From Candidatus Binataceae bacterium (GTDB taxonomy: Bacteria; Desulfobacterota; Binatia; Binatales; Binataceae), in contig JADMIL010000010.1 of assembly GCA_015478645.1 (NCBI GenBank), positions 1-64,000 on the forward strand: 64,000 bases of DNA, in the 5' to 3' direction. Both the position numbers and the translations under genes were made by a program. Below are positions 25,382 through 55,992 of the stretch, piece by piece. The first letter of the stretch is position 1. Every line of letters begins with the position of its first letter. The notes under the pieces were generated by a model. It was not told the origin of the DNA. It made no database searches and worked only from the letters and a program-made list of their open reading frames with translations.

Positions 25382-26302
25382 ATGAGCCGGACAGCCGAAT
25401 TCGGAATTTTCTCGCCCCAGGCCGGGATGTCGTTCAAGGCGATCGCCGATCGCGCCACGCAGGCCGAACAGCTCGGCTACCATTCGCTGTGGTTCGTCGA
25501 TCACTTCTGGAATCGCGGCATCCCCGACGCCGACTGCCTCGAATCGATGGCGCTGATGAGCGGGATGGCGGCGCGCACGGAAAAGTTGCGCATCGGCACG
25601 CTGGTGCTGTGCAATTCGTTCCGCAATCCGGCGCTGCTCGCCAAGGCGCTGACGACGATCGATCACGTGAGCGGCGGACGGCTCGAAATCGGGCTCGGGG
25701 CGGGCTGGATGGACGAGGAGTATCGCGGTTACGGCTACGAATTTCCGACGATGGGCGCGCGGCTGCGCCAACTCGAAGAGGGTCTCAAGGTCCTGAAGCT
25801 GCTGTTCGGCGAAAAGCGCGCGTCGTTTGCCGGCCGCTACTACAAGCTCGACGACGCAATCAACAATCCCAAGCCGATCCAGCGGCCCCATCCGCCGATC
25901 ACGATCGGCGGCAGCGGCGAAAAGGTCATGCTGCGAATTGTCGCGCAGTACGCCGACCGCTGGAATTGCCCGGCCGGCTACAAGAGCTTCGGCGACAAGC
26001 TGGGCGTGCTCAAGGCGCATTGCACGGCGGTCGGCCGCGATATCAAATCGATCAATATCTCCGAGCAGTTGCTGGTCTGCCTCGGCGCCAGCGAAGCCGA
26101 GGTCGAAGAGAAGTGGAAGATGGCGGGACGGCTCAAGCCGTTTTCGATCACCGGGATCAAGGGCACGCCGCCGCAAATCGTCGAGCAATTGCGCGCCCGC
26201 ATCGCGCAGGGGATCACCTTTTTCACGATCATGTTCGGCGACTTCGGACCGCCGCAGACGCTCGACCTGTTCGCGCGCGAGGTGATGCCGGCGTTCGCCT
26301 GA
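25382..26302 (+). CDS. LLM class F420-type oxidoreductase
   Basis: 306 residues of the luciferase-like TIM-barrel superfamily. FGIFSPQAGMSF, LGYHSLWFVDHF, TTIDHVSGGRLEIGLGAGW and NNPKPIQRPHPPITIGGSG are the usual motifs of the F420-dependent single-subunit branch. GGGAG precedes ATG 25382 (MSRTAEFG), which I prefer over the ATG at 25310. Soluble; substrate unknown. Divergent from the secreted hydrolase. Confidence 0.9.
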   Translation: MSRTAEFGIFSPQAGMSFKAIADRATQAEQLGYHSLWFVDHFWNRGIPDADCLESMALMSGMAARTEKLRIGTLVLCNSFRNPALLAKALTTIDHVSGGRLEIGLGAGWMDEEYRGYGYEFPTMGARLRQLEEGLKVLKLLFGEKRASFAGRYYKLDDAINNPKPIQRPHPPITIGGSGEKVMLRIVAQYADRWNCPAGYKSFGDKLGVLKAHCTAVGRDIKSINISEQLLVCLGASEAEVEEKWKMAGRLKPFSITGIKGTPPQIVEQLRARIAQGITFFTIMFGDFGPPQTLDLFAREVMPAFA

Positions 26303-50189: not shown

Positions 50190-50378
50190 ATGAGACAGTG
50201 TGGGGTATGTGGCAAAGGGCCCTCGGTGGGCAACCTGGTCAGCCACGCCAACAACAAGACCAAGCGGCGCTGGAAGCCCAACCTGCAGGAGGTGCGCGCG
50301 GTGATCGGCGGCGGCGTGCAACGAATCCTGGTCTGCACGCGCTGTATCCGCAGCGGCCGGGTGCTGAAAAGCGCCTGA
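50190..50378 (+). CDS. rpmB: 50S ribosomal protein L28
   Basis: 62 residues. [28 protein letters not shown] and VCTRCIRSG, with two CxxC pairs, the zinc-binding form of L28. ATG 50190 follows GGGAG. The usual partner rpmG is absent. Convergent with the ArsC-like gene. Confidence 0.96.
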
Positions 50379-50422: not shown

Positions 50423-50773
50423 TCAGAGCAGCGCGATCAGCTGCTCGGCGGGCCGCGCGATTACCGCGCGCCCCGCGCGGATCACGATCGGACGCTGCAT
50501 CAGCTCGGGATATTTGAGCAACAGCGCAACGACCTCCTCCGCCGTGGTGTAATCGGCACGCTGGAGTCCGAGCGCGGCAAAGCGCTGGTCCTGGCGAATC
50601 AGATCGGCCGGCGGCGCGTCGACGGTTGCGACAATCCGTTCGAGCGCGGCGCGGCTCGGCGGCGTCTTGAGATATTCGATAGTGTCGAACTCGACACCGC
50701 GGCGCTCGAGAATTTCCCGCGCGGCGCGCGAATGGCTTCAGCCGGGGTTGTGATAAAACGTCACTCGTTCCAT
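50423..50773 (-). CDS. ArsC-family thioredoxin-fold reductase with in-frame UGA at catalytic Cys12 (candidate selenoprotein)
   Basis: 117 codons, ATG 50773 to stop TGA 50423. Reading begins MERVTFYHNPG, then TGA (50740-50738), then SHSRAAREILERRG and on in the same frame: IEYLKTPPSR, ADLIRQDQRF, LMQRPIVIR and AVIARPAEQL. In E. coli ArsC (YHNPACGTSR) the catalytic cysteine is residue 12; here codon 12 is the TGA. The three arginines equivalent to R60, R94 and R107 are conserved. So either UGA encodes selenocysteine or a point nonsense mutation hit precisely this codon. A GC-rich stem can be drawn 14-41 bases after the UGA, but the apical loop lacks the usual G. No sel genes are in the window. 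Confidence 0.75.
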
Positions 50774-51004: not shown

Positions 51005-51730
51005 ATGTCCATCGTGAACCGCAAGCGGCGCGCGAAAAATCCCGGCGGCCCGCCGCGCACCCTGCACGCAATCATCATGGGCGCGAAGCGCGCAAGCCTG
51101 GCCGCCGCAATCGCCGCGGGCTTGGCCCTGATCGCGCCGGCCACGGCCCGCGCCGCGCGGGTCAGCGGCAGCCTGACCACCTACCGGGGCGCGCCCTACG
51201 CCAGCCGCGACCTCCATTTCGAGAACTGCGTGACCCGCGACATCTATCTCTCGCCGACCCATAACGACGGCTCCTTCGCGCAGCATCTGCCACCCGGATG
51301 CTACAATTTGCGCACCGAGCATGGCGCCATCCTGGCGAATTCAATAATCGTCGGCGACACCAACGTGAATCTCGGCACGGTGACCGAGTTGGCGCCGTTC
51401 GCACCCGCGCGCCTGTTCCATCTGCAATCGCTCTTTCCGACCCTGCTGGCCAGCCCGGCGCCGTCCACCGCCTATATTTTTACCCACGACTCGACGGTAG
51501 TCCCGGCGAGCGCCGCGAAGGTGCCGGTGCCGAGCTCGCAAAGCGAATGGATCAAGCTGCAGCAGCAGATGAACAACGGGGTTGGCGCCAAGTCCGGCGC
51601 CGACCATCAGGCGATCCCGGTGGGCGGCGGCGACACCACCGCGGCGCCGCGGTTCGGCGAGCCGATAGGTTTCGGCGCCGGCGCGGGGCGTCAGCCGGCT
51701 CAAGCGCCGCTCGGCACCCCCACGCAATAA
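51005..51730 (+). CDS. Exported protein of unknown function
   Basis: 241 residues. A long signal (hydrophobic core about 30-48, cut near ARA-A), then a beta-rich domain: GSLTTYRGAPYASRDLHFEN, DGSFAQHLPPGCYNLR, like carboxypeptidase-regulatory or transthyretin-type folds. A Gln/Gly-rich tail follows. GGGAG lies ten bases upstream of ATG 51005. Role unknown. Confidence 0.7.
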   Translation: MSIVNRKRRAKNPGGPPRTLHAIIMGAKRASLAAAIAAGLALIAPATARAARVSGSLTTYRGAPYASRDLHFENCVTRDIYLSPTHNDGSFAQHLPPGCYNLRTEHGAILANSIIVGDTNVNLGTVTELAPFAPARLFHLQSLFPTLLASPAPSTAYIFTHDSTVVPASAAKVPVPSSQSEWIKLQQQMNNGVGAKSGADHQAIPVGGGDTTAAPRFGEPIGFGAGAGRQPAQAPLGTPTQ

Positions 51731-53139: not shown

Positions 53140-54324
53140 TCAGCCGATCTGGCTGCCGACCACCGAGACGAAGCTGACGCAGCGGCCGGGCTGTCCGCCC
53201 AAGTTATGCGTCAGTCCCAGCCGCGGGCTCTTGAGCTGGCGCGGGCCTGCCTCGCCGCGCATCTGCAACCACATCTCGTACATCATGCGCAGGCCCGAAG
53301 CGCCGATCGGATGACCGAACGACTTGAGGCCGCCGTCGGGATTGACCGGCAGATGACCGTCGAGGTCGAAGAAGCCCTCCATCACGTCCTGCCACGCCGT
53401 GCCGCGCGGACTGAAGCCGAGATCCTCGCACAGCACCAGTTCGGTCGGGGTGAAGCAGTCATGGACTTCGGCCATGCTGATCTGCTCGCGCGGATTAGTG
53501 ATACCGGCCTGGGCGTATGCGTCGCGCGCCGAGGCGACGACTTCGGGGAAGGTGGTGAAGTCGTACTCCTGCGAGAGCGGCCCTTCGGCCGGTCCGGCGA
53601 CGAACGACAGCGCCTTGATATAGATCGGGTTCTTGCAGTACTTGTGCGCGTCCTCGGCCCGCACCACGATCGCCGCGGCCGAGCCGTCGGAGACCCCCGA
53701 ACAATCCATGATGCCGAGCGGGTCGGCGATGCGCGGCGAATTCTTGATCACCTCGAGCGGCACTTCCTTCTGGAACTGGGCCTTGGGATTGCGCGCGCCG
53801 TTGCGATGGTTCTTCCAGGCAATGCGCGTCAGCACGTCCTTGCCCTTGTCCGCCTCGAGTCCGTACTTTTTGAAATAGGCCGGGGCGAGCAGCGAGAAGA
53901 GCGCCGGCGGAGTCATCGAAGCCGGCGTGCCGTCGTTGGGCGGATTGGTCATCACCAGGCCCGAAAAGCCCGAGTCCTTGAGCTTTTCGACCCCGATCGC
54001 CATCGCGATGTCGAACGCGCCCGAGGCCACCGCGTAGCAGGCCTGGCGCAGCGACTCGGAGCCGGTCGCGCACATGTTCTCGACCCGGGTGACCGGCTTG
54101 TACTGAATCTTGAGCGGCTCCGAGAGCGTCAGCCCGGAGACGCCGGAGCCCATCGTGCCGAGCCAGTAGGCGTCGACGTCTTCGGGCGCGACGCCGGCCG
54201 AAGCGTAGGCTTCGTACGCCGCCTCGATCATGAGGTCGTCGGCGCTCTTGTCCCAATGCTCGCCGAACTTGGTACAGCCCATCCCAATAATCGCGACACG
54301 ATCCTTGATGCCTCGACTCGCCAT
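53140..54324 (-). CDS. SCP-x type thiolase / acetyl-CoA acetyltransferase
   Basis: 394 residues. N-terminal VAIIGMGCTKFGEHWDKSADDL, acylated cysteine in RVENMCATGSESLRQA, AEVHDCFTPTE and GGLKSFGHPIGASG. This is the branch of thiolases that usually works with a DUF35/OB-fold partner in lipid, sterol side-chain or aromatic degradation. The partner gene lies directly upstream (27 bases). Catalytic residues are intact. Confidence 0.93.
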   Translation of the reverse strand: MASRGIKDRVAIIGMGCTKFGEHWDKSADDLMIEAAYEAYASAGVAPEDVDAYWLGTMGSGVSGLTLSEPLKIQYKPVTRVENMCATGSESLRQACYAVASGAFDIAMAIGVEKLKDSGFSGLVMTNPPNDGTPASMTPPALFSLLAPAYFKKYGLEADKGKDVLTRIAWKNHRNGARNPKAQFQKEVPLEVIKNSPRIADPLGIMDCSGVSDGSAAAIVVRAEDAHKYCKNPIYIKALSFVAGPAEGPLSQEYDFTTFPEVVASARDAYAQAGITNPREQISMAEVHDCFTPTELVLCEDLGFSPRGTAWQDVMEGFFDLDGHLPVNPDGGLKSFGHPIGASGLRMMYEMWLQMRGEAGPRQLKSPRLGLTHNLGGQPGRCVSFVSVVGSQIG

Positions 54325-54351
54325 GAAAAATTCCTCCTGATCCCGATCCGG

Positions 54352-55761
54352 TCAGCGCCGCGGGCGCGCCTTCCAGAAATAGTTATGCACGCCGTCGGCG
54401 GTAAAGAGCCGCCGGAACGTCATCTCGACTTCGTCGCCGATCGCCACCCGGTCGGGCTCGCAATCGGTCATCTCGCACAGGAAACGGCCGCCGCCGTCGT
54501 AGTCGATCACCACGTTGACCGTCGGCGGATTGAGCGAATAGGCCAGCCGATCGATCGCGTAGGTGGCGATGCGTCCGGTGCGGTCGGCGAATCCATAAGG
54601 TTCCATCTTATCAAATGCGCGGCATTTGACGCATACCCGCTGCGGCGGCAGTTGCGGCGTGCCGCAGGCGGTGCAGCGCGAGCCCACCAGGCCGAACTTC
54701 CACCGCGCCGAACGCATCATCGGCGGCCCCGCCGGACGGTCCGGATCGGGCCGGCGCGGCGGCTCGGTGGGCAGGATTTCGCGCCACTTGAGATAGTTGC
54801 CGTAGCTCACGTCGCCCTTGGACTCGACCATCCGGCCGACCGAATGGACCGGGCGGAAGGCCGCCGCCGGCGGCATCACCCGCAGCACCATCGCGTCGGC
54901 GCCGTCGCTGACGGTCGCCACCAGGATCCGATCGCCAGGCTTGGCGGCGGGCAGCACCGCGGTCAGCATCAGCGCCGCATGGGCCGCGCCGGCCTGGCCC
55001 ACGGTGAGCGCCAGCGAATCGGCGACCTTGGCCGGATCGAGCTTAAGCTCCTTGAGCATCTCCTCGGCGGCGCGCTGATTGGGCGCGTCGAGGACGATCT
55101 TGGCCAGATCGCCGGGCGCGACTTTGGCCTTGGCCAGCGCGTCGTGGATGATCTTTTTGAATAACGGACTGTAGGCCTGGGTCAGCGCAAAGCGCTCTTC
55201 CCACGAATGGGCGAAGCGCTCGCCCGGCGCGCGCCAGGTATCCAGATATTCGCGCGTCAGCGACGCGCTCGCCTCGACCTCGGCCAGCACGTTCTCGGTG
55301 CCGAAGATAAAGGCCGCCGCGCCGTCGCCGCCCGACTGTTCGAGCTTGCCCTCGGGCGCGCCCAGCCGGCAATCGGCCAGCGCGACAGCGGCCTGCCCGC
55401 CCGAAGCCGCGACCGACTCGGCCGCCTGCAGCATCGCGGAGAGTCCGGCGCGCACCGAACCGGTCGAGTCGTTGGCGCGGATTTCGGCCGGCAGTTGCGC
55501 GGCGGCGCCGACCAGAGCGGCGTTGAGCTTCTCGGCGTAGGGCGGCGTGGTGGTCGCGTAGGTGAGCGAAGTGACCGCCGGCGACGGTGCCGCCTTCAGC
55601 GCGTCGCGCAGCGCCTCGGCCGCCATCGAAACGCTGTCCTCGTCGAAGCTCGCCACGGCGCGTTCGCCGCGGCCGGCCGGGATACCGAGCACCTGCCCAA
55701 TCGCGGCGCGTTTGAGCCGCCGGTAGGGGATATATGAACCATAGGAAACAATTCCAGCCAT
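54352..55761 (-). CDS. Ketoacyl-synthase-III/HMG-CoA-synthase-like domain fused to DUF35 zinc ribbon-OB fold
   Basis: 469 residues. Residues 1-330 are thiolase-superfamily (AGIVSYGSYIPYRRLKR, TLTYATTTPPYAEK-like region, NDSTGSVRAGLSAML, VGQAGAAHAALML). In the place of the catalytic Cys the loop reads TGSVRAG, without cysteine. Residues about 350-469 are the DUF35 partner: zinc ribbon RCTACGTPQLPPQRVCVKC, then an OB fold. So it probably is a scaffold or acyl-CoA-binding partner of the neighbouring thiolase. ATG 55761 chosen; frame above is repeat-derived. Confidence 0.85.
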   Translation of the reverse strand: MAGIVSYGSYIPYRRLKRAAIGQVLGIPAGRGERAVASFDEDSVSMAAEALRDALKAAPSPAVTSLTYATTTPPYAEKLNAALVGAAAQLPAEIRANDSTGSVRAGLSAMLQAAESVAASGGQAAVALADCRLGAPEGKLEQSGGDGAAAFIFGTENVLAEVEASASLTREYLDTWRAPGERFAHSWEERFALTQAYSPLFKKIIHDALAKAKVAPGDLAKIVLDAPNQRAAEEMLKELKLDPAKVADSLALTVGQAGAAHAALMLTAVLPAAKPGDRILVATVSDGADAMVLRVMPPAAAFRPVHSVGRMVESKGDVSYGNYLKWREILPTEPPRRPDPDRPAGPPMMRSARWKFGLVGSRCTACGTPQLPPQRVCVKCRAFDKMEPYGFADRTGRIATYAIDRLAYSLNPPTVNVVIDYDGGGRFLCEMTDCEPDRVAIGDEVEMTFRRLFTADGVHNYFWKARPRR

Positions 55762-55884
55762 AGGCGCATTAAAGGCTTTCCCGCGGCCGTCCGTCAACTC
55801 GCGCGCCTGACGGGTTCCAGCTGAATCCAGATGGCCGAGCGATTGTTTTAATGTTCGACTGATTCCATCTGCTATTGCCGCCAC

Positions 55885-55992
55885 GGAACCTCTGCACCAG
55901 GCTCTGCTGTCACCCTGAGCGCAGCGCATGGGTCCCGGATCCAGGATTCTTCGCTGCGCTCAGAATGACAACCTAACTTGTGCAGAGGTTCC
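55885..55992. repeat. Nested inverted-repeat element, complete copy
   Basis: Arms GGAACCTCTGCACCAG (one base changed) and CTTGTGCAGAGGTTCC. Internal CACCCTGAGCGCAGCG / CGCTGCGCTCAGAATG around GGTCCCGGATCC. Nearly identical to the copy at 57979. It lies in the 313-base gap between the OB-fold gene and the histidine kinase stop; nothing else in that gap is recognised. Confidence 0.9.

Follow-up and report, generated by a model that had tools for sequence, protein, structure and literature searches.

An ArsC-family gene with a probable catalytic selenocysteine and a candidate displaced SECIS in a Binataceae genome

The ArsC-family gene and its in-frame UGA

The window, by which we mean the whole 64,000-nt stretch analysed (contig JADMIL010000010.1, assembly GCA_015478645.1), carries at 50423..50773 on the minus strand a gene for an ArsC-family protein of 116 aa, recognised by profile and structure matches and by its orthologues, with a presumptive selenocysteine (Sec) in a UxxS motif (U12-S-H-S15). 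Translation of 50423-50773 (-) gives MERVTFYHNPG*SHSRAAREILERRGVEFDTIEYLKTPPSRAALERIVATVDAPPADLIRQDQRFAALGLQRADYTTAEEVVALLLKYPELMQRPIVIRAGRAVIARPAEQLIALL, ending LIALL; the sole internal stop of the ORF, which runs from 50773 to 50423, is the TGA at 50740-50738, and the terminal stop is TGA too. With codon 12 set to Cys, the protein scores 46.5 bits against Pfam ArsC (PF03960), for which the gathering cut-off is 24, and matches solved E. coli-type ArsC chains with an E-value of 6e-16. A sequence-only reading of this DNA had described an ArsC frame with a single internal stop, located at the position of the E. coli ArsC nucleophile and followed by equivalents of R60, R94 and R107. The description holds: the translation puts the TGA at codon 12, homologues have Cys or UGA there, and in the alignment the E. 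coli ArsC arginines R60, R94 and R107 correspond to Arg in the window and in 38/38 Sec sequences. The window protein retains each of the residues H8, N9, S15, R60, R94 and R107, and of the 38 Sec genes one at most departs from them.

The convergent neighbour is rpmB (50193..50378, +), encoding ribosomal protein L28, which marks the syntenic place of the gene; in the window's family the ArsC gene adjoins rpmB, and often mutL, a place common to Sec and Cys versions. Upstream, a divergent 241-aa ORF (51005-51730, +) without a Pfam match is conserved in the family. Elsewhere in the window, a thiolase-like protein is encoded beside a fused KAS III-like / ChsH2-type zinc-ribbon OB-fold protein (53140-55929, -), genes that possibly belong to acyl-CoA or steroid metabolism.

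We followed codon 12 through the homologues, a check that the sequence-only reading had proposed. Of the seven genomes in the genus, five have this TGA, and the four genes besides that of the window are about 65% identical to it. The search for homologues was extended to 148 genomes of the class, and the DNA of close homologues was then compared at codon 12. In 84 class genomes this codon is TGA at 38 loci and TGC or TGT at 47, with no other state, doubly fetched loci being counted once and one of the 47 Cys loci (L057) belonging to a genome that the class search did not cover. An in-frame UGA is thus found opposite Cys in some homologues and kept as UGA in others, and the TGA homologues reach down to about 44% identity. 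Among 395 sampled genomes of the phylum, close homologues outside the class are rare and none with the TGA form was seen; no relative of the window gene was found on viral contigs. One single-contig genome has two equally scoring copies of the Sec ArsC gene, one near each end (G020:C1:86042-86383 and 5140005-5140346), possibly an untrimmed assembly overlap.

Because codon 12 swaps only with Cys codons and the frame is conserved beyond it, we take the UGA to be decoded. The original proposal of translation through the TGA as selenocysteine gains support from the 38 genomes that share it, and from these sequence comparisons we judge the window gene to be almost certainly a selenoprotein gene, with Sec insertion at codon 12 (50738..50740, -).

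The predicted enzyme and its substrate

ArsC of E. coli plasmid R773 (glutaredoxin-linked, TIGR00014 type) is similar to the window protein in length, in fold family, in H8, N9, R60, R94 and R107, and in its resolution from outside. The window protein differs in carrying Sec for Cys12, in being encoded outside an ars operon and in scoring 96.9 bits against TIGR00014, its best curated NCBIfam match, below the equivalog cut-off of 106.05, which two relatives miss as well. Sec is the single redox residue of the window protein, and Cys is entirely absent from 33 of the 38 Sec relatives; each of the other five has a single Cys, which in four cases falls at codon 29, as a result of the VACD form of the hairpin described below. 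As the single redox residue, Sec12 would take the role of Cys12 in E. coli ArsC: its selenolate, near R60, R94 and R107, would attack arsenate or a similar substrate, as in the E. coli enzyme, and may make for a more reactive reductase. Since the window protein has no Cys, the oxidised Sec intermediate would have to be resolved by an outside thiol, for example glutathione/glutaredoxin or an equivalent.

By analogy with the E. coli enzyme, we consider the chances evenly balanced that arsenate is the physiological substrate. No ars genes were found near the ArsC homologues in the flanking DNA examined, while the linkage to rpmB and mutL is stable in the family. Concomitantly, a separate arsR - thioredoxin-type (LMW-PTP-like) arsC - acr3 cluster (L161) is present on contig C75 of the window genome (G000). 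Together with the TIGR00014 match under its cut-off, these observations would fit an ArsC-fold selenoenzyme that takes no part in cellular arsenate reduction and is a general thiol-disulfide reductase or a reductase of another oxyanion, although the retention of the six residues listed above across the Sec genes speaks against it; the chance of this we put at slightly under even. Such an enzyme would differ in its substrate only, and the proposal is compatible with the claims made here on Sec and on the SECIS.

A hairpin 46 nt downstream of the UGA

The decisive lead to the insertion signal was the synonymous-site profile. At codons 27-30, in pairs sharing the amino acid, synonymous identity is 1.00 in Sec genes and 0.35-0.69 in Cys genes. 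These codons form a hairpin, H2 (50682..50697, -; GUGUCG-AGUU-CGACAC), whose loop (50691-50688) lies 46 nt after the UGA and which an optional outer G-U pair extends to 50698-50681. The consensus is GUCG-NGKN'-CGAC, with outer pairs that usually bring the stem to 6-7 bp, and the window has the loop AGUU. The motif with its loop at 46 nt is present in 38/38 Sec genes and 0/47 Cys genes, and contiguous pairing averages 6.6 bp at this position while the next best position reaches 2.1. Covariation in H2 is 0.317 when compared to 0.154 +- 0.019 for shuffled alignments, none of 500 shuffles reaching the observed value; 96% of the H2 cells are paired in the Sec alignment, whereas the Cys alignment has 59.5% and no covariation excess. 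At columns 45-58, compensatory changes replace C-G by U-A (as in the window) or by G-C, and inside the loop A-U gives way to C-G together with a VEFD-to-VACD change in the protein, pairing being conserved where the amino acids are not. Finally, the presence of H2 follows Sec in five of five supported independent contrasts, a number for which the sign test has a floor of 0.06.

A search of Rfam at the ArsC locus gave no match. The absence of any SECIS, which the sequence-only reading had named as evidence against itself, is not what we observed, as a SECIS-type hairpin is present 46 nt after the UGA. The range that it had put forward for a SECIS search, 50740-50690, would cut this conserved hairpin, H2, which runs to 50682. 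We regard it as highly likely, on comparative grounds, that H2 is the SECIS of the Sec ArsC genes. H2 would then direct the decoding of the UGA, with SelB binding its apical loop (NGUN') 46 nt downstream.

Published rules for the bacterial SECIS give a loop of 3-9 nt with an early G, a distance of 16-37 nt from the UGA and a folding energy of at most -7.5 kcal/mol (PMC13188914). At 46 nt in each of the 38 Sec genes, the H2 loop falls outside this range, while a hairpin of the type of H1 (50698..50728, -), which occupies the spacer, fits the rules in the window (loop GAAAUUC, 21 nt, -13.4 kcal/mol; rules hand-coded). H1 could thus be an ordinary SECIS, with its loop about 21 nt after the UGA, and H2 a separate element that, for example, slows the ribosome or boosts readthrough. 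In addition to the canonical distance, the spacer of Sec genes folds better than synonymous shuffles (mean z -1.18, and -0.19 in Cys genes). Nevertheless, we hold this to be unlikely. The same rules also accept almost every Cys homologue and the majority of control stretches (G+C-rich DNA), so that they do not discriminate here, and no register for H1 is common to the families. The H1 loop is without a Sec-specific G/U motif, its conserved G-A belonging to an acidic codon that is largely kept in Cys genes, and it is H2 that has both an invariant NGK loop and covarying pairs.

Our preferred reading is instead that SelB binds H2 and that H1 forms a helix in the spacer by which the path becomes shorter; it rests on the predicted fold, on the Sec-specificity of H2 and on the ordinary distances seen in SelD and in an ArsC-like paralogue of the UxxC type. 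The predicted fold of the 66-nt RNA of the window consists of exactly H1 (50728-50698) followed by H2 (50697-50682), with no gap, and is modestly better than that of dinucleotide shuffles (z -1.22); folding energy against synonymous shuffles is likewise modest (Sec -1.0, Cys -0.7). Of 31 distinct Sec sequences, 24 are predicted to fold with H2 and seven without it, and in those 24 folds H1 ends 0-2 nt from H2, without a gap in 21; no Cys sequence has a predicted fold with H2. In the seven genomes of the genus, SelD has a strong hairpin (GGUCC-GGC-GGACC) 17 nt after its UGA, and in the UxxC paralogues a SECIS-like hairpin whose loop shares the AGUU core of H2 lies at 21-22 nt. By folding against H2, H1 would bring the SelB-bound loop nearer to the ribosomal A site than expected from the linear distance. 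For H1 as a compacting spacer, which rests on predicted folds, the chances seem to us a little better than even. Somewhat more firmly, we propose that the ArsC genes of the class probably use a composite Sec-insertion element, in which H2 is displaced to 46 nt and the abutting H1 restores a working distance. As a whole, the joint reading of Sec at the catalytic position of an ArsC-family protein, decoded via H2 with H1 as a compacting spacer, appears very probable.

Selenocysteine machinery, Sec/Cys exchange and known relatives

The window genome has selA, selB and selD, the genes for the set (SelA, SelB, SelD) by which we scored Sec machinery; SelB was recovered as two stretches of one open frame, and SelD contains one UGA itself. 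The tRNA-Sec gene selC was not found in this assembly (91.9% complete, 98 contigs) with the Rfam family, with the DNA of a relative or with an exact pattern that recovers selC in all six genus-mates. As tRNA-Sec with the anticodon TCA is present in six of six other genus members, we take the missing selC to be an assembly gap; the genes beside selC differ among genus-mates, and synteny could therefore not settle the question. Thus, among the four sel genes that the sequence-only reading had suggested looking for, selC alone is seen in the genus-mates only, and the lack of both selB and tRNA-Sec, which it had counted as contrary evidence, applies at most to the latter.

SelD is a selenoprotein in seven of seven genus genomes (L042-L048; KAAG-U-AGKLG). 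In each of two genus-mates, G002 (C18:23069-23160 and 25930-26021) and G005 (C81:2413 and 10084), the tRNA-Sec gene is present as two nearly identical copies separated by a few kb, and contig C70 of G002 has a third tRNA-Sec candidate.

Across the class, selA was found in 37 of 38 Sec genomes, G063 being the one in which it was not, and in 29 of the 46 Cys genomes, a difference with Fisher p 1e-4 when kinship is ignored; of the 17 Cys genomes lacking selA, two are inferred from two unlisted genomes. Some Cys genomes keep selA, which shows that Sec and Cys are interchangeable in the ArsC gene without loss of the trait. On the tree, the Sec/Cys changes number nine most simply and at least five on supported branches, and the window gene clusters with Cys genes of another genus (support 89/88). 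Both versions occupy one rpmB-linked place, which argues for exchange in situ.

These data leave next to no room for two other explanations of the internal stop. A pseudogene, or a sequencing or assembly error for TGC, would look alike as a lone internal stop in one MAG, but the same TGA is present in 38 genomes, 31 of them with distinct downstream sequence, which makes a codon error very unlikely, and codons 13 to about 116 are under purifying selection (pN/pS 0.32-0.53, window compared with ten Sec relatives); we rejected both on the conservation of the TGA. Reassignment of TGA to another residue, or selenium-free readthrough by a near-cognate tRNA, might be suggested by the tRNA-Sec not found in the assembly, but is as negligible given the exchange with Cys alone, the presence of selA, selB and selD, and the tRNA-Sec of six genus-mates; in addition, the gene's own TGA terminator implies two meanings of TGA in one gene and excludes a global reassignment, which we rejected on this ground and on conservation.

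Sec-containing ArsC proteins of the UxxS type have been described since 2005, with 14 sequences from the Sargasso Sea (PMC1088965), and 77 such sequences were reported from GOS (PMC2398784); a 2026 review lists both UxxS ArsC and UxxC ArsC-like types, and mentions that some putative elements depart from the bacterial SECIS model (PMC13188914). The window protein shares with the UxxS arsenate reductase (COG1393/PF03960) the ArsC family, the catalytic Sec, the UxxS motif and a bacterial origin. It differs in that it is known here from MAGs within a single class, for which gene order and a Sec/Cys history are available, and it may also differ from the marine ArsC genes in having its hairpin at 46 nt from the UGA. 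Open papers searched under the presumed group name do not mention the use of Sec in this class, nor did the literature searched report a conserved bacterial SECIS at 46 nt. The kind of protein is therefore already known, and what is new is most likely the displaced, apparently composite SECIS. When compared to the bacterial SECIS (bSECISearch model; E. coli fdhF), H2 is similarly located in the coding region 3' of the UGA and has a small apical loop with G then U/G on a 6-7 bp stem, but its loop lies at 46 rather than 16-37 nt and its spacer is predicted to be filled by an abutting hairpin.

The UxxC arsenate reductase-like selenoprotein (NF041106, PMC13188914) likewise has an ArsC-like fold and a UGA at the same position; the window ArsC differs from it in being UxxS, with about 34% identity, and the SECIS-like hairpin of the UxxC type stands at the usual distance. 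The window genome also encodes a UxxC ArsC-like protein (L012; G000:C92:17742-18026, -) with UGA at the catalytic position (MKHARFLWKST*STCRN) and a SECIS-like hairpin, CAGG-AGUUU-CCUG, about 21 nt after it; NF041106 is not among the NCBIfam matches of this paralogue, and its counterparts in genus-mates G001, G002 and G005 have Cys at the catalytic position.

Sec insertion has been described as needing a SECIS at a short, limited distance from the UGA, a limit that search programs apply. A conserved element 25 nt further out than that of a paralogue in the same lineage would test how far SelB delivery tolerates, or corrects for, distance. A displaced SECIS suggests that selenoprotein genes may be missed and, if true, would represent a class of bacterial SECIS beyond the reach of the standard search model. 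Moreover, at least five supported Sec/Cys changes, tracked by the presence or absence of the hairpin and in several cases at one syntenic place, would make the cost and benefit of Sec testable in the ArsC fold.
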